64,000 bases of DNA from Mesorhizobium sp. B4-1-4 (lineage in GTDB: Bacteria > Pseudomonadota > Alphaproteobacteria > Rhizobiales > Rhizobiaceae): NCBI RefSeq assembly GCF_006439395.2, contig NZ_CP083950.1, positions 2,604,001-2,668,000 of the forward strand, read 5' to 3'. Position 1 is the first letter of the stretch, and every line of letters begins with the position of its first letter. The notes under the pieces are model-generated. The model made no database searches. It saw nothing but the letters and a program-made list of their open reading frames with translations, and was not told the origin of the DNA. Of the stretch, positions 4,674-29,412 are shown piece after piece. The position numbers and the translations under genes were made by a program.

Positions 4674-6119
4674 TCAATTCCTCGCCGCGTGACCGGAAAC
4701 CTCGGCACCTGCCCCTTGCGGCAGCACGAGGAAACGCAGCGCCGCCACCAGCCCGATGGCGCCGATCGCGAGGAAGGCGATTCGAAAATCGACGAGGTCG
4801 AGTGCCGGCCCATCCCTGGCGATCTGGGACAGGTTGAGGGTCGCCGCCGCCACCGCCACGCCGAACAGCATCGCCACCTGCTGCAGCATCGACGACAGCG
4901 TCGCCGCCGAACTGCGCTGCGCCGCGGCGATATCGGCAAAGGCCAGCGTGTTGAGCGCGGTGAACTGCATCGAACGCGACAGACCGGCGATCAGCATCAG
5001 CACGACAACCAGGGCCTGCGGTGTCTGCGGCGAGATCGCCGCGCAGGCCATGATCGAGGCCGAGGCGGTGATGCCGTTGACGACCATCACCGAGCGAAAA
5101 CCGAAACGCCGCAGCGTCGGCGTCGTCACCGTCTTCATGCCAAGATTGCCGAGAAAATAGGCCAGGATCATCATGCCGGCATCTACGGGCGAGAGGCCGA
5201 AGCCGACCTGGAACAAAAGCGGCAGCAGGAACGGCGTCGCGTTGATCGCCACCCGGAAGATGGTGCCGGCGGCCAGCGTCGAGATGGCGAAGGTCTGCAC
5301 CTTGAACGAGGACAGGTCGAGCAATGGGTGCGGGGCGCGCCGGAGATGCCGCACCGCCAGCCAGCCGACGACGATCCCCGCCGCGATCAGCAGCACCGTC
5401 GGCAGCATGCCATCCTCGGGATGCGCGAAGCGCTCGAGGCCATAGAGCAGGCAGGCGAGCCCGAGCGAGGTCAGGAAAAAACCCGGCCAATCGAGCGGCT
5501 TGGGATCGGCCTCACGGTCGCCGGGGACGAAGCGGGCGACAAGCCCCAGCCCGATCAGCCCAAGCGGGATGTTGATGAAGAAATTCCAGTGCCAGGACAG
5601 ATAGGTGGTGATGAAGCCGCCAAGCACAGGCCCGACCACGGGCGCGAACAGCGCCGGCCAGGTGATCAGCGCGGTGGCGTTGAGCAGTTCGGATTTCGAC
5701 GCATTGCGCAAGACAAGAATGCGCCCGACCGGCGTCATCAGCGCGCTGCCCAGGCCCTGCACGGCGCGTGCGGCGACGAATTCTGTCAGGTCCCGGGAGA
5801 AGCCGCAGGCAAGCGAGGCCAGCGTGAACAGCGCGATCGCGACGAGGAAAATGTTGCGCGCGCCGAACCGGTCGGCGAGCCAGCCCGATAGCGGCACGAA
5901 CACCGCCATGGTCAGCATGTAGACGGTGATGCCGATGCTCATCGCCACTGCCGGCACGCCGAAGGAGGCGCCCATCTGCGGCAGCGACGTCGAGATGATC
6001 GTCGAATCCAGCAGTTGCATGAAGAAGGCGATGGCAACGATCAGCGCCACGCGCCGCGCGTTTGTTGCTGCTGTCGTCGTGGGTTGAGGTGGGGCTTCGT
6101 CTTGGGAAAGAGCAGTCAT
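4674..6119 (-). CDS. MFS multidrug exporter, DHA2 (EmrB/QacA) family
   Basis: A 481-residue 14-helix drug:proton antiporter. The DHA2 hallmarks are visible: LLDSTIISTSLPQM in helix 1 (motif D1), GWLADRFGARN in the loop after helix 2 (motif A), and GPVLGGFI in helix 5 (motif C). It should export toxic compounds through the inner membrane without a dedicated outer-membrane partner gene in view. The start MTALSQDEAP is preferred over an upstream in-frame alternative because hydrophobic helix 1 begins at about residue 24. It is divergent from the cyclodeaminase gene at 6237. Confidence 0.9.
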   Translation of the reverse strand: MTALSQDEAPPQPTTTAATNARRVALIVAIAFFMQLLDSTIISTSLPQMGASFGVPAVAMSIGITVYMLTMAVFVPLSGWLADRFGARNIFLVAIALFTLASLACGFSRDLTEFVAARAVQGLGSALMTPVGRILVLRNASKSELLNATALITWPALFAPVVGPVLGGFITTYLSWHWNFFINIPLGLIGLGLVARFVPGDREADPKPLDWPGFFLTSLGLACLLYGLERFAHPEDGMLPTVLLIAAGIVVGWLAVRHLRRAPHPLLDLSSFKVQTFAISTLAAGTIFRVAINATPFLLPLLFQVGFGLSPVDAGMMILAYFLGNLGMKTVTTPTLRRFGFRSVMVVNGITASASIMACAAISPQTPQALVVVLMLIAGLSRSMQFTALNTLAFADIAAAQRSSAATLSSMLQQVAMLFGVAVAAATLNLSQIARDGPALDLVDFRIAFLAIGAIGLVAALRFLVLPQGAGAEVSGHAARN

Positions 6120-6236
6120 GACGACCCGGTTTGAACAGCATCCGGCTGGCTCAGTCCATAGGTTATCCAACAAACTTTCGTATCGCCTGTTTGCCTGTTA
6201 TGGAGGGAGTGGGGGCTCCCGAGGAACAGTGCGCGC

Positions 6237-7238
6237 ATGAAGCCCATCTATATCGACTATCTCAATGCCTTCGACATCGACGCCCTTGCCATGACCGATG
6301 CGGAAATCATCGGCGCGGTCGAGGCCGGGCTCGTGGCGCAGGGCAAGGGCCAGACGGTGATCGAGCCGCGCGTCCACCTGGAGCCCGACCCGTCCTTCCA
6401 CGGCCATTTCAACGTGCTGCGCGGCTATGTGGCGCCGCTCGATGCGGCGGGCGTGAAGATTGTCGGCGATTATGTCGACAACTATCTGCACGGACTGCCG
6501 TCCGAGTTCGGCATCCTCAATCTGTTGGATCCGCGCACCGGCACGCCGCGCGCCATTCTCGACGCCACCGTCATCACCGACATGCGCACCGGCGCGGTCA
6601 CCGCCATCGGCGCCAAGCATCTGGCGCGCAGGAATTCCAAGGTGCTGGCCCATATCGGCGCGCGCGGCACTGCCTATTGGAACGTGCGGCTGCTCGACCA
6701 TCTCTGCGACTTCGACGAGATCCGCGTCCATTCGCGCCGCCCGGAAAGCCGCGACGGCTTTGCCGCCAAACTGTCGGCCGATCTCGGCAAGACGGTAACG
6801 GCGGTGGCCGACTGGGAAGGCTGCGTCAAGGGAGCGGACATCGTCGTCGAGGCCTCGCGTCTGCCGGAGCCGCAGCCGCTACTCAAGACCGAATGGATCA
6901 AGCCCGGCGCGCTTGTGGTACCCTATGGCACGATGAGCGCGGTGGAACTGTCGCTGACCGACATCATGCAGAAGATGGTCGTCGACGATTGGGGCCAGTG
7001 CAAGGGCGGCAAGTTCGGCTCGCTGCGGGCCCATGTCGAGACCGGGCGGCTCAGCGAAAAGACGCTGCATGCCGAGCTTGGCCAGATCGCCGCCGGTCTA
7101 AAGCCGGGTCGCGAAAGCGACGACGAAACAATCCTGTTCTGGCATCGCGGCCTGTCGCTCTCCGACATTGCGCTCGGAAAGGCGATGCTGTCCAAGGCGC
7201 AAGCCCAAGGCATCGGCCAGAGGCTGCGCTTCGCATGA
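6237..7238 (+). CDS. Ornithine cyclodeaminase/mu-crystallin family enzyme
   Basis: A 333-residue NAD(P)-dependent enzyme of the ornithine cyclodeaminase family. Family features include VKIVGDYVDNYLHGLP (the substrate-binding lysine segment), ILDATVITDMRTGAVTAI near residue 115, and a Rossmann turn written IGARGTA instead of the usual GxGxQA. Members make proline from ornithine, or reduce cyclic imines such as pyrroline-2-carboxylate, in the cytoplasm. The stop overlaps the start of the lyase-like gene (ATGA), so the two are coupled. Which of the family reactions applies cannot be told here. Confidence 0.82.
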   Translation: MKPIYIDYLNAFDIDALAMTDAEIIGAVEAGLVAQGKGQTVIEPRVHLEPDPSFHGHFNVLRGYVAPLDAAGVKIVGDYVDNYLHGLPSEFGILNLLDPRTGTPRAILDATVITDMRTGAVTAIGAKHLARRNSKVLAHIGARGTAYWNVRLLDHLCDFDEIRVHSRRPESRDGFAAKLSADLGKTVTAVADWEGCVKGADIVVEASRLPEPQPLLKTEWIKPGALVVPYGTMSAVELSLTDIMQKMVVDDWGQCKGGKFGSLRAHVETGRLSEKTLHAELGQIAAGLKPGRESDDETILFWHRGLSLSDIALGKAMLSKAQAQGIGQRLRFA

Positions 7239-8746
7239 GCGCGCTGGTCCTCACCGGAGCCCGCATCGGCACAGGCGATGTCGCCGCGGTCGCCCGTGAA
7301 GCGCGCAAGGTGGAAATCGGACCCGATGTCATCGGCAGGTTGGAAGAGGCGCGAAAAGTGCTCGATCATGCCGCCGCCTCTGGCCAGCATATCTATGGCC
7401 TGAACACCGGACTTGGCGCCAATCTCGGCACGACGGTCGAAGGCGACGCCAGCGCTTTCCAGCGCCAATTGCTGGAAGGGCGCAGCGGAGCGGTCGGCGA
7501 AACGCTGCCGACCGAGACTGTCCGCGCCACCATGGTCGCGCGCGCATCGATGCTTTCGGCCGGTGGCTCCGGCCTTTCGCCTGCCGTGTTCGTCGCTTTG
7601 GTCGACGCCCTCAATGCCGGTGTCCATCCGGTGATGCCGTCGCTCGGTTCCATCGGCGCCGGCGACCTCGTGCTGATGACCGCGCTCGCCCGCCTGCTGA
7701 TCGGTGAAGGCGAGGCCGATTATCAGGGACGACGAATGCCGGCGGCAAAGGCGCTGATGATGGCCCGCCTTGCCCCGATCCGCCTAGCGCCCAAGGACGG
7801 GCTGTCGCTCGTCAACGCCTCGGCGGTCTCCGCCGGCAGCGGCGCGCTCGTGGTGACGGATACGCTGTCGGCCCTTGTCCAGCAGCAGCAGGCCGGCGCG
7901 CTGACCATGGAAGGCATCGGCGCCAACCGCACCATCCTTGATCCGCGCCTGCACATGGCACGCCCGGCGGCCGGCCAGCAGGAAGCCGCCAAGGCGCTGC
8001 ATGATCTTCTCGCCCGCGACGAGGCACCGGCGCCGACAACCCTGCAGGACCCGCTCTCGATCCGCTGCATGCCATCGATCCACGGTGCGCTGATCGACGC
8101 AATCGCCCAGGCAAAGCGGGCCGTCGAGATCGAGCTCAATGCCGCGGCCGACAACCCGCTGGTGCTCGGCGACGACGGCGTGGTGATGTCGACAGGCAAT
8201 TTCCACACGGCTGCCCTGTCGCTCGCCTTCGAGACGCTCAGTCTGGCGATCGCGCAATGCGCCGCGGCGAGTGCGGCCCGCTTCATCCAGCTCACCGGTT
8301 CCGGTCGTAACGGCCTGCCAAAATATCTCTCCCCGGTCGGCGGCGCGTCGGCTGGTTTCGTGCCGCTGCAAAAGACGGTGACCTCGATCCTGGCCGCCAT
8401 CCGCCACAAGGCCAATCCGGTGATGCTCGATTTCCTGCCCATCTCGGAAGGCGTCGAGGACCACGCGACCCAGTCGCCGCTCGCCGTTGCGAAATGCGCC
8501 GGGATGATCATGCTGTGGCGGCGGTTGATCGCCTTCGAACTGATGGCCGCCGCCCAGGCCGTCGACCTGCGTGAAGGGCTGGTGCTGGCACCACGTATAT
8601 CGGCCGTCCACGCGGGGATCCGTGCGCTCGTCCCGGTGCTGAAGGAGGACAGGCCGCTCGGCATCGACGCCGAAGCGCTCCATGCCGCGCTTGCCAGCGG
8701 GAATTGGACCTTACATCAGGCTGACCTTGTCCAGGAACAGGCGTAG
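7235..8746 (+). CDS. HAL/PAL-family aromatic amino acid lyase homologue lacking the MIO triad
   Basis: A 503-residue protein of the histidine/phenylalanine ammonia-lyase family. The N-terminal YGLNTGLG (residues 54-61) matches the catalytic tyrosine loop, and later blocks (QDPLSIRCMPSIHG, NPLVLGDDG, SGRNGLPKYLSP) fit the fold. The cofactor-forming Ala-Ser-Gly is missing: the site reads GSIGAGDL (residues 138-145) where active lyases have GSVGASGDL, one residue shorter. Without the MIO electrophile, classical ammonia elimination is unlikely. The ATG was chosen for its overlap with the upstream stop; the longer frame is out of register with the cyclodeaminase. It ends by overlapping a convergent gene by 36 bp. 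Confidence 0.85.
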   Translation: MSALVLTGARIGTGDVAAVAREARKVEIGPDVIGRLEEARKVLDHAAASGQHIYGLNTGLGANLGTTVEGDASAFQRQLLEGRSGAVGETLPTETVRATMVARASMLSAGGSGLSPAVFVALVDALNAGVHPVMPSLGSIGAGDLVLMTALARLLIGEGEADYQGRRMPAAKALMMARLAPIRLAPKDGLSLVNASAVSAGSGALVVTDTLSALVQQQQAGALTMEGIGANRTILDPRLHMARPAAGQQEAAKALHDLLARDEAPAPTTLQDPLSIRCMPSIHGALIDAIAQAKRAVEIELNAAADNPLVLGDDGVVMSTGNFHTAALSLAFETLSLAIAQCAAASAARFIQLTGSGRNGLPKYLSPVGGASAGFVPLQKTVTSILAAIRHKANPVMLDFLPISEGVEDHATQSPLAVAKCAGMIMLWRRLIAFELMAAAQAVDLREGLVLAPRISAVHAGIRALVPVLKEDRPLGIDAEALHAALASGNWTLHQADLVQEQA

Positions 8747-9511
8747 CTCGGCCGGATCCATGTGCACGATGTGCCTGTCCTCGGGATAGGCGCCGCTGTT
8801 GACGTCGGCGACATATTCGGAGAATGCGGCGACCCGCTCCGCTTGCAGCCGGTCACACTCGGCGGCGAAGTTGCGATAGACTTTGGAATGGCGGGGCATG
8901 TGACCACGGTTCTGGCCAAGAATATCCTCGGCGAACAGATATTGCGCGTCGCAGCCCGTGCCCGCCCCCATCGACAGCATGATGAGCGGAGTACGCTCCG
9001 AGATCGCCTTCGCCACCTCGACCGGCACCACTTCGATCTCGGCGCCGATGGCGCCGGCCGCCTCCAGTTGCTTCACCGCCTCGAAAACCTGCATGGCGGC
9101 GTCGGCGGTCTTGCCGACGGCCTTGAAGCCACCGGTCCAGGTCGCGCGCGATGGAATGAGGCCGACATGGCCGATAACGGGGATAGCATCGTCGGCCATC
9201 CGCTTGATGGTGGCGTAGCCGGCGCTGCAATAGACCGCGTCGGCGCCGGCCTTGTAGAGGCGGAAGGCCCAGCGGACGAAATCATCCGCCGTGCCGATCT
9301 CGAAGAAATTCTCGCCCGGCATGGTGAACAGGCTGGGGGCTGCATCGCGGTATTGCGGGTTGAGCACCAGTTCGGGCGGCACCGAGACGATGTCGACCCC
9401 TGCCCGTTCGGCGGCCTCGGCCTCGTCCAGGGTCAGAACACGCAGCATGGTCAGTTGGCGCTTACCCTTCATCGCGCGCAGATCGGCGACGGTCGGTCTC
9501 TTTCGGCTCAT
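8711..9511 (-). CDS. PanB-superfamily (ketopantoate hydroxymethyltransferase-like) protein
   Basis: A 266-residue TIM-barrel protein that resembles PanB in GHVGLIPSRATWTGGFKAVGKT and in EVVPVEVAKAI with the following GAGTGCDAQYL. The PanB magnesium ligands known from E. coli (Asp45, Asp84, Glu114 in GDS, ADLPF and IEGG) are not visible: the matching stretches read VSVPPEL and YCSAG. It is therefore probably not a pantothenate enzyme but a lyase or aldolase with another substrate. The start at MSRKRPT was chosen because AAGGA lies 10 bases upstream; an ATG six codons earlier is weaker. It is the last gene of the catabolic run. Confidence 0.75.
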   Translation of the reverse strand: MSRKRPTVADLRAMKGKRQLTMLRVLTLDEAEAAERAGVDIVSVPPELVLNPQYRDAAPSLFTMPGENFFEIGTADDFVRWAFRLYKAGADAVYCSAGYATIKRMADDAIPVIGHVGLIPSRATWTGGFKAVGKTADAAMQVFEAVKQLEAAGAIGAEIEVVPVEVAKAISERTPLIMLSMGAGTGCDAQYLFAEDILGQNRGHMPRHSKVYRNFAAECDRLQAERVAAFSEYVADVNSGAYPEDRHIVHMDPAELRLFLDKVSLM

Positions 9512-9555
9512 CGAACTTTGTTCCTTCATTGTGTTGGGGATGCCATGTCGGCCGA

Positions 9556-9870
9556 TCAGTCGATCTCGATCATCACCTTACCGGCCTCGACCTTGACCGG
9601 ATAGGTCTTGAGATTGACGCAGACCGGCGCGCCCTTGGCCTGGCCGGTCTTGTAGTTGAAACGGCCATTGTGTTTCGGGCATTCGATGATGTCGTCCATC
9701 ACCAGCCCGTCGGCCAGATGCGCCTTCTCATGCGTGCAATAGCCGTCGGTGGCGAAGAACTCGTCATCCGGCGAACGGTAGACCGCGAAGGTGCGGCCGC
9801 CATGATCGAAGCGAATGACATCCTCTTCCTCGACGTCGTCCACCGCGCACGCTTCAACCCAATTGGCCAT
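9556..9870 (-). CDS. Rieske-type [2Fe-2S] ferredoxin, MocE-like
   Basis: A 104-residue soluble Rieske protein. The cluster ligands are Cys45-x-His47 (CTHEKAHLADG) and Cys64-x2-His67 (CPKHNGRF), the exact two-loop pattern. Its size fits stand-alone Rieske ferredoxins that deliver electrons to oxygenases, such as MocE of the rhizopine pathway. It lies 28 bp downstream of a membrane diiron hydroxylase gene, so it is the likely electron donor for that enzyme. No ferredoxin reductase (MocF) is encoded beside it; one must come from elsewhere. Confidence 0.88.
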   Translation of the reverse strand: MANWVEACAVDDVEEEDVIRFDHGGRTFAVYRSPDDEFFATDGYCTHEKAHLADGLVMDDIIECPKHNGRFNYKTGQAKGAPVCVNLKTYPVKVEAGKVMIEID

Positions 9871-9898
9871 CTCGGGCTCCTCACGACATTGGCGATCG

Positions 9899-10978
9899 CT
9901 ACTCGGCCGCCGCCGACATATCGGCCCCATGGAACTCGCCGCGATAGGGTCTGGCCGTCGGCGGCAGTTCACGCTTGAGGTAATAGTCCTCGTATCTCAG
10001 CTGCCTGAGCAGCACCGGCCAGACCTCGCGATAGGCATGCCACATCGACGGGTTCGGCTCCGGCAAATCGTGCTTGATCAGTTCGTGCAGCCTTGGCAGC
10101 GCGTGATAGGGCACCATCGGGAACATGTGGTGTTCGACATGGTAGTTCATGTTCCAGTAGATGAACCGGCTGATCGGGTTCATGTAGACGGTGCGGGTGT
10201 TGAGCCGGTGATCGACGACATTGTCGGCAAGGCCGATATGCTGCAGCAGGCCGGTCGTCACCATATGCCAGGTGCCGTAGAGGCGCGGCACACCGATCAG
10301 CACCAGCGGCACCCATGATCTAAGCCCGATCGCGAGAGCGATCGTCGCGACATAGATGGCGACATGCCAGCGGGCCGCGACCACGGCCTTGGGCTGTTCC
10401 ATCTCCGGGATGTAGCTCTTCTCGTCGTCAGACAGCGTGCCGAAAGCCTGGCGCACAAGCGTCGGCAGCGAATAGCGGAAGTCGAGAATGCCGGTGAAGG
10501 CCAGCGCCGCCTTCAACAGGTCCGGCGGACGCATGACGGCAATCTCGGCATCGCGGCCGACGATGATGGTGTCGGTGTGGTGGCGGGCATGGCTCCAGCG
10601 CCATTGCACGGGATTGCGCATCAGCATGAAGGAGGCGATGTGGTAAACCACGTCGTTCATCCAGCGCGTGCGGAACGCCGTGCCGTGGCCGCATTCATGC
10701 CAGCGCGAGTCGCTGGACGAGCCGTAGAGCACGCCGTAGACGAACAGGAACGGCACCACCCACCCCGAGCCCCAGAACCAGACGATCCCGGCGGCCGAGC
10801 CCAGGATCGCCGCGAGCCAGATCGCCGTGTCGCGGATCGCCGGGCCGTCGCAGCGCCGCATCAACTCCTTCATCGCCTTGCGCGGCACGTCGGTGTGATA
10901 CCACTCGGCCGAGGCCAGGCCGGTCTCGATCGCGATCCGTGTGCTTTCGCCGACCAGGCTGTAGTCGCGCTTCGCCAT
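9899..10978 (-). CDS. Membrane diiron hydroxylase/fatty acid desaturase family, MocD-like
   Basis: A 359-residue integral-membrane oxygenase with the three histidine boxes of the desaturase/hydroxylase family: HECGH (94-98), HARHH (130-134) and HVEHH (280-284), plus an extra histidine at QHIG (247). Four or so membrane segments are visible. The family uses O2 and electrons from a ferredoxin. In rhizopine degraders the homologue MocD acts with MocE in demethylating 3-O-methyl-scyllo-inosamine; a lipid substrate is equally possible. Gene order next to the Rieske ferredoxin favours a small-molecule hydroxylase. Confidence 0.85.
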   Translation of the reverse strand: MAKRDYSLVGESTRIAIETGLASAEWYHTDVPRKAMKELMRRCDGPAIRDTAIWLAAILGSAAGIVWFWGSGWVVPFLFVYGVLYGSSSDSRWHECGHGTAFRTRWMNDVVYHIASFMLMRNPVQWRWSHARHHTDTIIVGRDAEIAVMRPPDLLKAALAFTGILDFRYSLPTLVRQAFGTLSDDEKSYIPEMEQPKAVVAARWHVAIYVATIALAIGLRSWVPLVLIGVPRLYGTWHMVTTGLLQHIGLADNVVDHRLNTRTVYMNPISRFIYWNMNYHVEHHMFPMVPYHALPRLHELIKHDLPEPNPSMWHAYREVWPVLLRQLRYEDYYLKRELPPTARPYRGEFHGADMSAAAE

Positions 10979-10996
10979 CGTCTTCTCCCGCTGGCC

Positions 10997-11911
10997 TCAA
11001 AGGCCGTTGGCGCGGAATTTCCCGTCCAGAAATGTCTTGGCGCGCGGCACGTCGTCCTCGGTCAGATGCTCGATGATGACAGGGATGTTCGGGTGCTTCT
11101 CGCTGAGCCGTCTGAGATAGAGATCGTAGTTGAGCGAGCCGAGACCAGGAGCGGGCAGTTCGATCTCGCCGACGCCACGGAATGTCAGCCCCTCATGGGC
11201 GTTCTCGTCGCCGATGTCCGCATGCTTTTCCGACTTGTCGCCGCCCGAGCGCTTGACGTCCTTGGCGTGCGCGATCCTGATCTTTTCGGCCAGCGTGTCG
11301 AACACCTGGTTCAGCACCTGGTCCATGCGATCGATGTTGTGGGCCTCGAAATAATTGGTCGGGTCCATCAACAGGCCGAGCCCGGGGTGATCGACCTGCG
11401 CGAACATTTTCACCGTCTCCTCGACCGAGCCGACGACATTGTTGACATAGGTTTCGAGCAGGAACACCGCGCCGTGGTCATAGGCCGTCCGGGCAAGGTC
11501 GGAGATCACCTTGCGGCATTCCTCGAAACCCTCTTCGGTCTTGTTCCTGGGATGATGCACCCAGTCGGATTCGGTGTTGTAGGTGCCGGTTTCGGAGATC
11601 ACATAGGGCGAGCCGAAATCGCGCGCGTTGCGGATGATCTCCTTGAGATAGCCGACGCGCCTTTCGCGCTCGGCTTTGTCGGGATGGATGATGTTGGTGT
11701 AGCCTGAAATGCAGCAGACCGGCAGATTGTGGTCGCGGAATGTATCGCGGACCTTTTTTGCCTTATCCCTGGTGATCTGTCCCGCCGACAGGTCGATATC
11801 CCTGAAATGCAGGTCGAGCTGCACGGTGTTGAAACCGAGCCCGCGGATGCGCCTGGCGGCCTCATCCAGCTCGTAAGGAAAATAGCCTGTAAAGATACCT
11901 GCCTGCATCAT
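10997..11911 (-). CDS. Sugar phosphate isomerase/epimerase-like TIM-barrel protein (MocC/IolE-like)
   Basis: A 304-residue AP-endonuclease-2-like TIM barrel. Metal-binding positions of the family are seen at ETGTYN near residue 123, ETYVNN near 167, MDPTNYFE near 194, HAKDVKR near 226 and a final VIIEHLTEDD. Relatives isomerise, epimerise or dehydrate sugars and inositols; MocC and IolE belong to this superfamily. It is placed between a MocA-like dehydrogenase and a MocD-like hydroxylase. A GGGAGGA site precedes the start, 9-10 bases before MMQAGIF. Confidence 0.82.
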   Translation of the reverse strand: MMQAGIFTGYFPYELDEAARRIRGLGFNTVQLDLHFRDIDLSAGQITRDKAKKVRDTFRDHNLPVCCISGYTNIIHPDKAERERRVGYLKEIIRNARDFGSPYVISETGTYNTESDWVHHPRNKTEEGFEECRKVISDLARTAYDHGAVFLLETYVNNVVGSVEETVKMFAQVDHPGLGLLMDPTNYFEAHNIDRMDQVLNQVFDTLAEKIRIAHAKDVKRSGGDKSEKHADIGDENAHEGLTFRGVGEIELPAPGLGSLNYDLYLRRLSEKHPNIPVIIEHLTEDDVPRAKTFLDGKFRANGL

Positions 11912-11968
11912 GGGGTGAAGTCCTCCCGGTAAGCGATTCAGTGGCCATACTAATCCGTGGCCGGATGT

Positions 11969-13057
11969 TCAGTCGGTCGAGATTTCGGAGAGCCTGACGG
12001 TGCGGCCTTTTGCCATCGAGCGATAGCCGGCTTCGACCAGCGCCATGGTCTTGACGTTGTCGGCGACCGACAGCGCCGGCGGCGTGCCGGTCTTTACGGC
12101 ATATTGAAGCTGCTCCATCACGCCGATGAAGGCGTGCGGGAACCACATCGTGTCCCAGCTCGGACTGACCCATTCTCCGCCGGTCGTCTCGGTCGAGGCA
12201 TAGGTCAAGGTCGATGCCACGCCTGTCGGCCAGCCGATCGTGCCCTTGGCGACACCCTTGGTGCCGTCGACGCGCCAGTTGATGTGCTGATCGTCTCGAT
12301 AGCCCTGCTGACGGGGCCCGGACCACACATCCTCCAGCGACACAGCGAGCACGCCGGAAGGGAACCGCAAGGTCGACACCGTGATGCCATCGGAATGCTC
12401 GAACGTCGTGCGCGGATCCTTGCGCGTTAACGTGGTGATCTCCAGGGGATCACCGAACAGGAAGCGCAGCACGTCGAGATGATGCACGCTCATATTGGCA
12501 AGTGTGAGCCGGTCGTAATCGGCGAGGAAGGCTTGCCAGTGCGGGATCGCGTGCATGTCGATCTGCGCGAAGACGATGTCGCCGAGCGCGCCACTGTGGA
12601 TGATCTGCTTCAGCACGCGCATCGACTGGTCGTAGCGCATGTTCTGGTTGACCGAGAGGATCTTGCCTGAAATCGCCGCCTCGTCGCGCAGCTTGACGGC
12701 TTCCTCGACTGACAGCGCCAACGGCTTCTGCGCCAGGATCGCCTTGATGTGCTTCTGCTTGAGCGCGTGGCGGATCAACGCCGGCTGCTGGTCGGGAGGA
12801 AAGGCAAGGTCGACGATCTCGACATTGTTGTCTTCGATCAGCTGCTCCGGCGTGTCATGCACGGTCGGGATGTCCCAGCGTGTGGCGACCTTCTCGGCGC
12901 TGGCCTTCGTCCGCGACGCGATCGCCACCACTGGAAATTCGGCCTGGGCGTAAGCGCCCAGGTGGCACTCGGCCATGATCATACCGGCGCCGACGCAGCC
13001 GATCCGGTATTCCCTGGCGCGCACCTTGACGTCCGGCTCGAAACCCATGCTCGCCAT
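11969..13057 (-). CDS. Gfo/Idh/MocA-family oxidoreductase
   Basis: A 362-residue NAD(P)-dependent dehydrogenase. The Rossmann motif is RIGCVGAGMIMAECHL, and the family catalytic motif AQKPLALSVEEA (usual EKP, here QKP) comes near residue 110. MRYDQSMR and the histidine in ANMSVHHLDVLRF follow as expected. Enzymes of this type oxidise inositols, sugars or amino sugars. The start MASMGFEPD was chosen because GGGAGGA lies 6-7 bases upstream; the longer frame has no ribosome site. A 57-bp gap separates it from the epimerase gene. Confidence 0.87.
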   Translation of the reverse strand: MASMGFEPDVKVRAREYRIGCVGAGMIMAECHLGAYAQAEFPVVAIASRTKASAEKVATRWDIPTVHDTPEQLIEDNNVEIVDLAFPPDQQPALIRHALKQKHIKAILAQKPLALSVEEAVKLRDEAAISGKILSVNQNMRYDQSMRVLKQIIHSGALGDIVFAQIDMHAIPHWQAFLADYDRLTLANMSVHHLDVLRFLFGDPLEITTLTRKDPRTTFEHSDGITVSTLRFPSGVLAVSLEDVWSGPRQQGYRDDQHINWRVDGTKGVAKGTIGWPTGVASTLTYASTETTGGEWVSPSWDTMWFPHAFIGVMEQLQYAVKTGTPPALSVADNVKTMALVEAGYRSMAKGRTVRLSEISTD

Positions 13058-13217
13058 CCAATCCTCCCCGAGAAACTGGATATAACGCCATGGCCCCGGC
13101 ATCGGCCAAGGCCTGCACCATCATTTCCCATCAGCACAATGGAGGTGAGAGCCGCGAAGGTTCAAATGCAAAAAGGACGGCTCAGTTGGGCGCGGCGTCG
13201 AAGAGTGATGTTCTATC

Positions 13218-13667
13218 TTATTGAACCTCAGCGACCGCGGCATCGACAAAGCTGACGACCGCCCCGCCATCCTCGCCAGCACCGATCGCAATGCGCCCGC
13301 CGGAGGCGATGCCCGCAATGTCGCAAACCACGAGCGGCATACTGATCCCGTAAAGAAACTCGGCGACGATGGCGCCGACGGCGAGGATCGGGTCCGGCCT
13401 CTCCAGAAGGATACCTGCGGGCGCCGTGCCCCGGCGGATCGCCTCGGCCAGGACAGAGGACGAGGAAGACGACCCACGCCCGCTCGGCATGACGAGGATC
13501 TTGCCGGCGACGTTCTGGCCGAGGCCGGGGTGCGAATGATCTGTTATGTCGCCGGTTTCGGCATCTATGCCACCCCAGAAGCTGAGCGGCTGCGAAAACA
13601 CCAAGCTGTGTCCCTCTGCTGCGCCGATCAGTTGGAAGCTGCCTGCTCGTTCGATCAGCTTGCTCAT
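13218..13667 (-). CDS. Aconitase X small (swivel) subunit, DUF126
   Basis: A 149-residue swivelling-domain protein. It shows SFWGGIDAETGDITDHSHPGLGQ near residue 30, then VMPSGRGSSSSSSVLAEAIRRG, which is the conserved phosphate/substrate loop of DUF126. It forms a heterodimer with the large aconitase X subunit. Its ATG overlaps the large-subunit stop (ATGA), so both are made in a fixed ratio. Characterised bacterial two-subunit aconitase X enzymes dehydrate cis-3-hydroxy-L-proline to pyrroline-2-carboxylate; that specificity is a family-based guess here. Confidence 0.85.
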   Translation of the reverse strand: MSKLIERAGSFQLIGAAEGHSLVFSQPLSFWGGIDAETGDITDHSHPGLGQNVAGKILVMPSGRGSSSSSSVLAEAIRRGTAPAGILLERPDPILAVGAIVAEFLYGISMPLVVCDIAGIASGGRIAIGAGEDGGAVVSFVDAAVAEVQ

Positions 13668-14914
13668 GACGTACCTCGCACGACATGCCCGACAGCGGCG
13701 GAACGGATGCAATCCCTCATCTCGGCGAAAGCGACAGTCACGCCGATATTGCCCGGCGCGTAATGTGCCCATTTGCCGGAATTAGTCATAACCACGCCGT
13801 CGAGCCGTTCGAGGATCGCGGTGACATAGGTGCAGGTGTCGGCGACGGGGATCAGGCCGAACGCCTCCATGCCGTCAAGCGCGCCCTCCTCCTGCAGCCG
13901 CGTCAGCGTCGCCCGCCCGGTGCTGACATAGATCGGAATGCCCTTGCCAGGCGCGACCTCGCGCAGCATGGGCAACAGGCGCATCCATTCTTCGTGGGAA
14001 AAGTGCGGCGTGCCCAGCGACACGGCCGAGAGCGGCGCACCGTCGGCCACTCCAGACAGCCTGGCCAACGCATGATCGACGTCGGCACGGCTGATACGGA
14101 TAGTCTCCTCGGGCGCCATGCCCTGGAATGCGTCATCAAGCGTTTCCGCTTCCGGCGTGATGCCGACCGCATGAAACAGCGCCACGGCGCCGGTCGTTGC
14201 GGCCGCGGCACCCAGCGCCTTCAACTGGTCCTCGTCGCGCGGTTGCGGCAGGCCAGTGACAACCGGGACACGATCGCCGCTTGCTTGCCCGATGATCAGC
14301 CCGACGCCGACAAACAGGCTGTCGCTCGGTTCCGGATCGGCAACCGCCAGTTCGAACAGGATGCGCCCGCGCCGGTTTTCGCTGAGATGCAAGCCCCAGG
14401 CCGGCGCGCGTCCGGTCATGGCGCAGCACAGATCGATGAAGTCGCCATAGCGGTTGGTACGCGCGCCGATGACCGAATTGGCGAAGACGATGGCGTTGGA
14501 TTCGCCCCAGGCTATCTGCTGCCCGAATTCGGGCCGGAACCGCGTCTGGTAGGGCGCGCAGGTGAAGGTCGCCTGGCAGCCAAGCTCCAGATGCGCCTTC
14601 ATCAGCCGTCGCGCTGGCACTTCCTCCGCTGCCGCCATCTTCACCATGCCTGGATGGATGAGGTCGAACGAGCCGACATTGAGCGTCGTCGGTACCAGCA
14701 CGCGGCCGCCGCCCTCGACCAGCCGTTCGACGAAATCGAGCCCTGCCTTGCCGTGATAGAGACAGCCATCGATATGGGCGCCGGTGATGTCGAGCAGGCT
14801 GCCTGCTCCGACGGCTTTGGAGAAGGCGACGAGGGTTTTCATGGCGGCTGCGGCCGATGGACCTTGCTCGCCGTCGAGCATGGATTGATCTCCGACAGTC
14901 AATTCCAAAGTCAT
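13664..14914 (-). CDS. Aconitase X catalytic (large) subunit, DUF521
   Basis: A 416-residue protein matching the aconitase X catalytic domain, with SLLDITGAHIDGCLYHGKAG near residue 40, VLVPTTLNVGSFDL near 72, AWGESNAIVFANSVIGARTNRYGD near 135, and C-terminal DTCTYV and MTNSGKWAHYAPG. The family dehydrates hydroxy acids or, in the mevalonate-related archaeal branch, phosphomevalonate; bacterial stand-alone pairs act on cis-3-hydroxyproline. It leads the lower part of the catabolic run and is preceded by a 190-bp inverted repeat separating it from the transporter genes. Confidence 0.85.
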   Translation of the reverse strand: MTLELTVGDQSMLDGEQGPSAAAAMKTLVAFSKAVGAGSLLDITGAHIDGCLYHGKAGLDFVERLVEGGGRVLVPTTLNVGSFDLIHPGMVKMAAAEEVPARRLMKAHLELGCQATFTCAPYQTRFRPEFGQQIAWGESNAIVFANSVIGARTNRYGDFIDLCCAMTGRAPAWGLHLSENRRGRILFELAVADPEPSDSLFVGVGLIIGQASGDRVPVVTGLPQPRDEDQLKALGAAAATTGAVALFHAVGITPEAETLDDAFQGMAPEETIRISRADVDHALARLSGVADGAPLSAVSLGTPHFSHEEWMRLLPMLREVAPGKGIPIYVSTGRATLTRLQEEGALDGMEAFGLIPVADTCTYVTAILERLDGVVMTNSGKWAHYAPGNIGVTVAFAEMRDCIRSAAVGHVVRGTS

Positions 14915-28516: not shown

Positions 28517-29125
28517 TCAAACCCCGGTCGGGCTGTTGGCCGAAATGGTGATGTCGAGGGTCACGTGGCCGGCGCCCGGGCCGAAGCGGCAGAAAGCTTC
28601 GTTGAGCGTGGCGAAGATCGCGCCGGCATCGCCGCGCAGCTTGGTGCAGAAATGCTTGGAGCGCTCGAAGACGCCCGACTGCTTCAGGAAGTCGATGCAG
28701 CCATAGATCTCGTCCATGTGGTCGCCGGTGCCCATCACATAGAGCGAGAATTGCGCGGCCGCCGGCTGGTCGGTCGAAGCTGTCGACTGCACGGCGCGGA
28801 TCGCGGCCAGCTTGCGCTCGTCGAGCGGGATCGTCGGGCCGCCGATCTCGTCGGAGCGGCAGATCGGATCGTCCGGCTCGCCCGGGCAGCCGCGTGAGAC
28901 GGCGGCGGACAGTACGCAATGCTTGCCGCTTCTCGCCGCCGCCACGAACAGATCGCGCATGGCCGGAAACAGCACTTCGGGCGGCCCGACCAGCAGCGTC
29001 GCGATGTCGTCGGTCTCGATCCGCAGCCTGTCCCGGTAGGGATCGAGCGCGTCGAGCGCGCCCAGGATGACGCCGACGAAATCGTCGGCCATGGGATATA
29101 GGGAAATCTGTGCGCCTGAAAACAT
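28517..29125 (-). CDS. ykoF: YkoF-family thiamine/HMP-binding protein
   Basis: A 202-residue cytoplasmic protein made of two similar halves: ISLYPMADDFVGVILGALDAL...TLLVGPPEVLFPAMRDLFVAA and FSLYVMGTGDHMDEIYGCIDFL...GDAGAIFATLNEAF. This tandem fold is typical of YkoF, which binds thiamine or hydroxymethylpyrimidine and partners ThiXYZ-type importers. It is the first gene behind a TPP riboswitch. The ATG lies only a few bases after the aptamer, so its ribosome site is inside the riboswitch. Confidence 0.88.
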   Translation of the reverse strand: MFSGAQISLYPMADDFVGVILGALDALDPYRDRLRIETDDIATLLVGPPEVLFPAMRDLFVAAARSGKHCVLSAAVSRGCPGEPDDPICRSDEIGGPTIPLDERKLAAIRAVQSTASTDQPAAAQFSLYVMGTGDHMDEIYGCIDFLKQSGVFERSKHFCTKLRGDAGAIFATLNEAFCRFGPGAGHVTLDITISANSPTGV

Positions 29126-29222
29126 CGCCCGCCTCGCTCCGCTGGTATTACCCAGATCAGCTTCTAGGGTCTGTGGGCTTGCCGCCCCCGTCTCAGCCCC
29201 GACCGTACGGAGCACCCCTGTG
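29126..29222 (-). ncRNA. TPP riboswitch (thi box)
   Basis: On the minus strand the conserved elements occur in order: GGGGTGCTCC, GGGGCTGAGACGGG, ACAGACCCTAGAAGCTGATCTGGGTAATACCAGCG and the closing GGAGCGAGG. These are the pyrimidine-sensing (CTGAGA) and pyrophosphate-sensing (CTGATCTGG...ACCAGCG) halves of a thiamine pyrophosphate aptamer. The closing strand GGAGCGAGG is also the only ribosome-binding site for ykoF, so translation block by TPP is the likely mode. Confidence 0.93.
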
Positions 29223-29412
29223 GATGAGCGCGTTAAAGCACCATTCGATCGATTGGGGAAGCGGTTTTTTTCGGCGAGCTGCGCCAAAAGCGTTGCGCCA
29301 GAGCAGTGGCAGTGGGCTGCGCCGGCGCGAAATTTTCCGGGAACCTTCACCAGGTCGAGAGGTTGTCCCGCCAGTCGCTACGCGACAAGTTCACGGAAAA
29401 TGGAGACCAGCC

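Follow-up and report, generated by a model that had tools for sequence, protein, structure and literature searches.

A MIO-less, ergothionase-like member of the HAL/PAL family encoded together with an OCD-family oxidoreductase in Mesorhizobium

In histidine ammonia-lyase (HAL), an Ala-Ser-Gly triad cyclises to form MIO, and through this group NH3, which leaves poorly by itself, becomes a good leaving group; PAL, TAL and the aminomutases all require MIO as well. To our knowledge, ergothionase is the only structurally solved member of the branch of this family that does without it. In passages of PMC13405746, which cite Maurer et al. (2019) on this point, ergothionase is stated to have the HAL fold and to be MIO-free. 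As ergothioneine trimethylamine-lyase, ergothionase takes trimethylamine off a histidine betaine. PMC13405746 also cites Yan et al. (2022, ACS Catal. 12:4825) for an ergothioneine sulfonate catabolic pathway in Agrobacterium radiobacter.

The window analyzed here, a stretch of 64,000 nucleotides from Mesorhizobium sp. B4-1-4, encodes on its forward strand a 503 amino acid protein of the aromatic-amino-acid-lyase family (PF00221, 431 bits), whose intact frame runs from the ATG at 7235 to a stop ending at 8746. Residues 138-145 of this protein (7646-7669) read GSIGAGDL at the site where MIO enzymes have GSVGASGDL. Since the HutH of the same genome (G000:C1:1252334) has GSVGASGDL in the columns where the window lyase reads GSIGA-GDL, the latter is one residue short and lacks Ala-Ser-Gly. 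The initial annotation had described this motif, with one residue missing, the MIO serine absent and no MIO able to form, and the alignment with the host HutH bears it out on each point; the span it gave, 7652-7669, lies inside the motif and covers residues 140-145 of the full 138-145. The host genome (6.27 Mb) contains three PF00221 genes, namely the normal HutH, the window lyase and a second MIO-less paralogue. This paralogue reads GSIGAADL (L002; G000:C1:508482-509936, minus strand) and is flanked by D-2-hydroxyacid dehydrogenase-like and quinone-oxidoreductase-like genes.

A scan of genome contigs recovered 80 related loci, nearly all from Mesorhizobium, together with Phyllobacterium-type relatives at 60-62% identity. 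The one-residue-short motif without the MIO triad is present in 80/80, mostly as GSIGAGDL, with GSIGDSDL in six Mesorhizobium and ASIGAGDL in three loci. Because all related loci share the same short motif, chance or sequencing error can be rejected, and a pseudogene is likewise ruled out by the occurrence of the short form in 80 genomes, the intact frame and the dN/dS values of the lyase (Nei-Gojobori), which were 0.10-0.20 against Mesorhizobium, 0.22 against the Phyllobacterium copy and 0.32 against the Rhizobium plasmid copy L116. The earlier description of a full-length protein under selection was thus correct.

Several analyses place this protein beside ergothionase. In a single-sequence search the closest solved chain was ergothionase 6s7j (242 bits vs 227 for the next), and a profile of the branch searched against the PDB gave 525 bits for 6s7j and 450 for the next chain. 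An AlphaFold model of the window lyase, built from 31 loci sequences with plasmid rows left out (pLDDT 90.5, pTM 0.92), returned 6s7j at rank 1 in Foldseek (TM 0.93-0.94), HAL being nearly as close in overall fold. In an unrooted tree of 89 sequences, MIO-less and MIO members fell on opposite sides with the exception of one small clade, and in an unrooted 66-row tree calculated without the motif, Lys and 280 columns, a single branch with support 100 set off the main MIO-less set. The ergothionase of Treponema denticola falls within the MIO-less branch and the window lyase lies on its side of the tree. As the trees are unrooted, MIO may have been either lost in this branch or gained in the other. 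The initial annotation spoke of a deleted triad and proposed aligning the protein with its family; this alignment shows that the triad is indeed absent, but not through a deletion in a single gene, as the short form is common to the whole branch. The MIO-free state was already known from ergothionase, of the same fold, which had been overlooked. The triad-less form is a known enzyme type, represented here by an uncharacterised subfamily.

The exceptional clade (GSVGYL) also lacks the triad and is placed beside the MIO members. Within this aromatic-lyase family group, separate from the main MIO-less set, L204:7597-9042, L209:7587-9050 and L201:11481-13037 read GSVGYLTHMAH, a single Tyr replacing ASGDLAP, and have Tyr rather than Lys at the QKT site; the L201 member adjoins HutI. 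In three other HAL-family members (L103, L104 and L107) the motif is GSVGACGDL, with Cys in place of the MIO serine and Leu at position 280.

The catalytic columns of the window lyase distinguish it from MIO enzymes while retaining much of the HAL machinery. The YGLNTGLG loop (7394-7417) is kept, as had been reported, and carries Tyr54, the presumed base. The segment QDPLSIR (residues 271-277; 8045-8065) retains Gln271 and Arg277 and has Leu274 in place of HAL Tyr280, a position occupied by Leu, Ile, Val or Phe in 50/50 MIO-less representatives and by Tyr in 36/39 MIO representatives. Lys380 (LQKT; 8372-8374) is shared by 41/50 MIO-less representatives and was found in none of the 39 sampled MIO members, and Glu408-Asp-His (VEDH; 8456-8464) is equivalent to HAL Glu414 and ergothionase Glu411. 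Across alignments that comprise 31-40 sequences and share about 40% identity, Tyr54, Asp144, Gln271, Arg277, Lys380, Glu408 and Arg463 show no or almost no variation. The pocket of the window subfamily differs at residues 83 and 324, Arg83 corresponding to a His in both HAL and ergothionase, and GNFH to ANFE in ergothionase. Judged by these residues, the window lyase has machinery of the ergothionase kind but its own pocket. Elsewhere in the branch, a MIO-less member on S. meliloti pSymA (L120, 7929-9569) carries Ala in the Lys column and is three genes away from an annotated DMSP lyase (12244-12912). Two tandem PF00221 proteins of L237 (11445-14506, minus strand), still more distant, have GMDGE at the MIO site and retain the Lys; an OCD relative is encoded a few kb away.

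Directly upstream, and overlapping the lyase gene by ATGA, lies an ORF for a 333 amino acid oxidoreductase of the ornithine-cyclodeaminase (OCD)/mu-crystallin family (6237-7238, forward strand; PF02423, 193 bits). This OCD gene precedes the lyase in 80/80 related loci and the ATGA overlap is found in 78/80, the alignment stopping short of the start in the other two. OCD homologues, 65-93% identical, also occur near other MIO-less lyases. A relative 59-76% identical is kept in alphaproteobacteria with no MIO-less lyase nearby (L233-L250), beside HutU or HutF-like, serine dehydratase, class IV aminotransferase or peptide-type ABC genes. The OCD relative therefore has a wider role and is ruled out as a marker specific to the lyase pathway.

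An MFS transporter gene (4674-6173, minus strand) diverges from the OCD gene, is adjacent in 61/80 related loci and may be part of the unit in Mesorhizobium. The window lyase has the MFS and OCD genes as its neighbours, and no gene of the betaine transporter, Hut, MTTB or thiourocanate kind adjoins it. On the opposite strand downstream, positions 8711-13102 encode a PanB-like protein, a MocE-family ferredoxin (TIGR02377, over cut-off), a fatty-acid-desaturase-like oxygenase, a TIM-barrel isomerase and a Gfo/Idh/MocA oxidoreductase, a set that resembles rhizopine catabolism (moc) and is adjacent in most Mesorhizobium and unlinked to the lyase elsewhere. A part for these MocDE/TIM-barrel/Gfo-Idh and PanB-like genes in the lyase pathway is unsupported, as they are absent beside the pair in L067, L071, L076, L077 and L081-L083. 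Farther along the same strand, 13218-14914 encodes aconitase X divided between a swivel and a large subunit, close to cis-3-hydroxy-L-proline dehydratase (NF051439), and 29116-29229 holds a TPP riboswitch (RF00059, 60.3 bits).

Gene neighbourhoods across the MIO-less branch speak for betaines and methylamines. The nearest orthologues outside Mesorhizobium (L081-L083 and L114-L116; 58-62% identity) combine a glycine-betaine-type ABC transporter, two flavin monooxygenases, OCD and lyase; the monooxygenases, of the LLM flavin type (NtaA/DmoA subfamily, TIGR03860), lie directly upstream of the OCD-lyase pair, and a PhnD-like protein is present in some of these loci. In sister subclades the surroundings vary: an MTTB trimethylamine methyltransferase gene lies directly upstream of the lyase in L185 and L190-L192 and adjoins it in L174. 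L117 and L186 bring together a YeiH exporter, CoA-transferase, SDR, MaoC, lyase, betaine ABC transporter and OCD, and L201 has BCCT, HutU, HutI, HutG, lyase, OCD and a betaine ABC transporter. In L123 the lyase adjoins a hut operon, and in L121 a thiourocanate hydratase scoring above the curated cut-off. By gene content, these loci have in common betaine uptake and the processing of methylated amines and of acids resembling urocanate. The host genome itself carries seven MTTB-superfamily genes in seven places. No EgtD-family (PF10017) match was found in this genome, which speaks against the host as an ergothioneine producer.

Based on these sequence comparisons, we propose that the window lyase is probably a MIO-independent 1,2-elimination lyase that removes a methylated amine from an aromatic amino-acid betaine and works with the OCD reductase. 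MIO would be dispensable because the amine of a betaine is already quaternary and could leave without it. Tyr54 would take the beta proton, and Lys380 and Glu408, standing in for MIO and Tyr280, would position and polarise the substrate. The products would be a methylated amine, probably trimethylamine, and an acrylate-type acid, after which the co-translated OCD-family enzyme would use NAD(P)H to reduce the product or an intermediate derived from it. The most likely substrate, an aromatic amino-acid betaine taken up from plant or fungal matter, is a candidate and the least supported step of the proposal. Counting against the proposal are the identity of only about 32-34% to ergothionase, the different sub-branch, the pocket differences at 83 and GNFH, the occurrence of the OCD relative away from any lyase, and the lack of betaine-type neighbours in Mesorhizobium itself.

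It is also conceivable, if rather unlikely, that a MIO-free lyase of the ergothionase branch expels a leaving group other than a methylated amine, such as sulfur, phosphate or hydroxyl, and that OCD reduces the resulting imine or enamine. The NtaA/DmoA monooxygenases and the YeiH sulfate/sulfite-exporter-family gene of some loci would fit sulfur chemistry, as would the DMSP lyase annotation close to the member from S. meliloti, and the OCD protein is akin to alanine dehydrogenase and imine reductases; the MTTB, BCCT, betaine ABC and Hut neighbours nevertheless favour betaines, and we know of no MIO-free member with another leaving group.

That the window lyase is ergothionase itself, converting ergothioneine to thiourocanate and trimethylamine, seems improbable. 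Fold and branch are common to both, as are the Lys and Glu, but the Treponema ergothionase clusters with L119-L121 and L123 in a separate sub-branch, and OCD, constant in the window subfamily, was not found near L120, L121 or L123. Ergothioneine would be an unlikely substrate in view of the distinct pocket of this clade, the presence of OCD and the lack, around the gene, of a thiourocanate hydratase of the kind seen in L121.

Still less credible is a HAL relative that has lost catalysis and is retained as a binding or regulatory protein. The absence of MIO would suit it, but the near-invariance of the catalytic-site residues at about 40% identity, the overlap with the oxidoreductase gene and the activity of ergothionase without MIO (as given in passages of PMC13405746) argue otherwise. 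Accordingly, where the initial annotation offered either a different reaction or a binding or regulatory role, the former is likely and the latter is disfavoured by the near-invariant Tyr54, Gln271, Arg277, Lys380 and Glu408. Finally, the hutH label of orthologues in public plasmid records would favour a conventional histidine/phenylalanine ammonia-lyase, whose MIO arises from different residues or is masked by a sequencing error; this reading is practically dismissed by the short motif of 80 genomes, the failed HutH cut-offs and the true HutH elsewhere in the genome.

The label itself is a misannotation of the window-lyase subfamily, and automatic annotation would say histidine ammonia-lyase. 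The window lyase scores 354.9 against a cut-off of 539 for TIGR01225 and 376.6 against 524 for NF006871, and of the Tyr53-loop and Tyr280 pair expected of HutH it keeps the first, as Tyr54, and has Leu274 for the second. Wherever the hutH label means the MIO-less form, histidine catabolism is wrongly predicted for rhizobia and their relatives. The absence of ASG, Leu/Ile at position 280 and the QKT lysine make up a three-site test that largely tells MIO-less from MIO members. Ergothionase-type enzymes were judged rare in PMC13405746 (2026) by BLAST, as only HAL/PAL/TAL-named matches came back, whereas in the present tree many HAL-named proteins are MIO-free and ergothionase-like. On a broader view, to which we give slightly less than an even chance, the MIO-free half of the HAL/PAL family would be large and mostly unrecognised in proteobacteria, and the window subfamily, with its conserved OCD reductase, would catalyse the first step of an undescribed rhizobial route that degrades some aromatic amino-acid betaine, though not ergothioneine. 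Were the betaine reading true, this would represent a new methylamine source and nutrient route in legume symbionts. A search of openly accessible literature on hercynine or thiourocanate returned nothing on this subfamily. The MIO-free HAL-fold lyase is known as a kind; the subfamily, its coupling to OCD and the breadth of the MIO-free branch are, on the evidence of the accessible literature, undescribed.

Among the known systems, PAL, TAL and the aminomutases (TIGR01226, TIGR04475, TIGR03832) share the fold (TM about 0.8-0.9 on the query) and give weaker sequence matches. HutH (TIGR01225/NF006871) has in common with the window lyase the fold, the Tyr54 loop, Gln271, Arg277 and Glu408, whereas the window lyase differs in having no ASG/MIO, in Leu274 for Tyr280, in Lys380 and Arg83, and in scores far under the cut-offs. 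The ergothioneine sulfonate pathway possibly corresponds to the L117/L186/L122/L201 type (lyase, OCD and betaine ABC transporter, some with YeiH or Hut), as gene content suggests; the window subfamily forms a clade of its own, and neither YeiH nor Hut genes adjoin the lyase in the Mesorhizobium locus. Ergothionase (Treponema denticola, PDB 6s7j/6s7q; Burkholderia sp. HME13) shares with the window lyase the HAL fold, Tyr53/54, LQDPLS, the QKT lysine and EDH, and the Treponema motif SSIGEGDI aligns in gap-free register with GSIGAGDL, both without the MIO triad. Unlike ergothionase, to which it is about 32-34% identical, the window lyase has no thiourocanate hydratase nearby, carries Arg83 instead of His and GNFH instead of ANFE, and is coupled to OCD.
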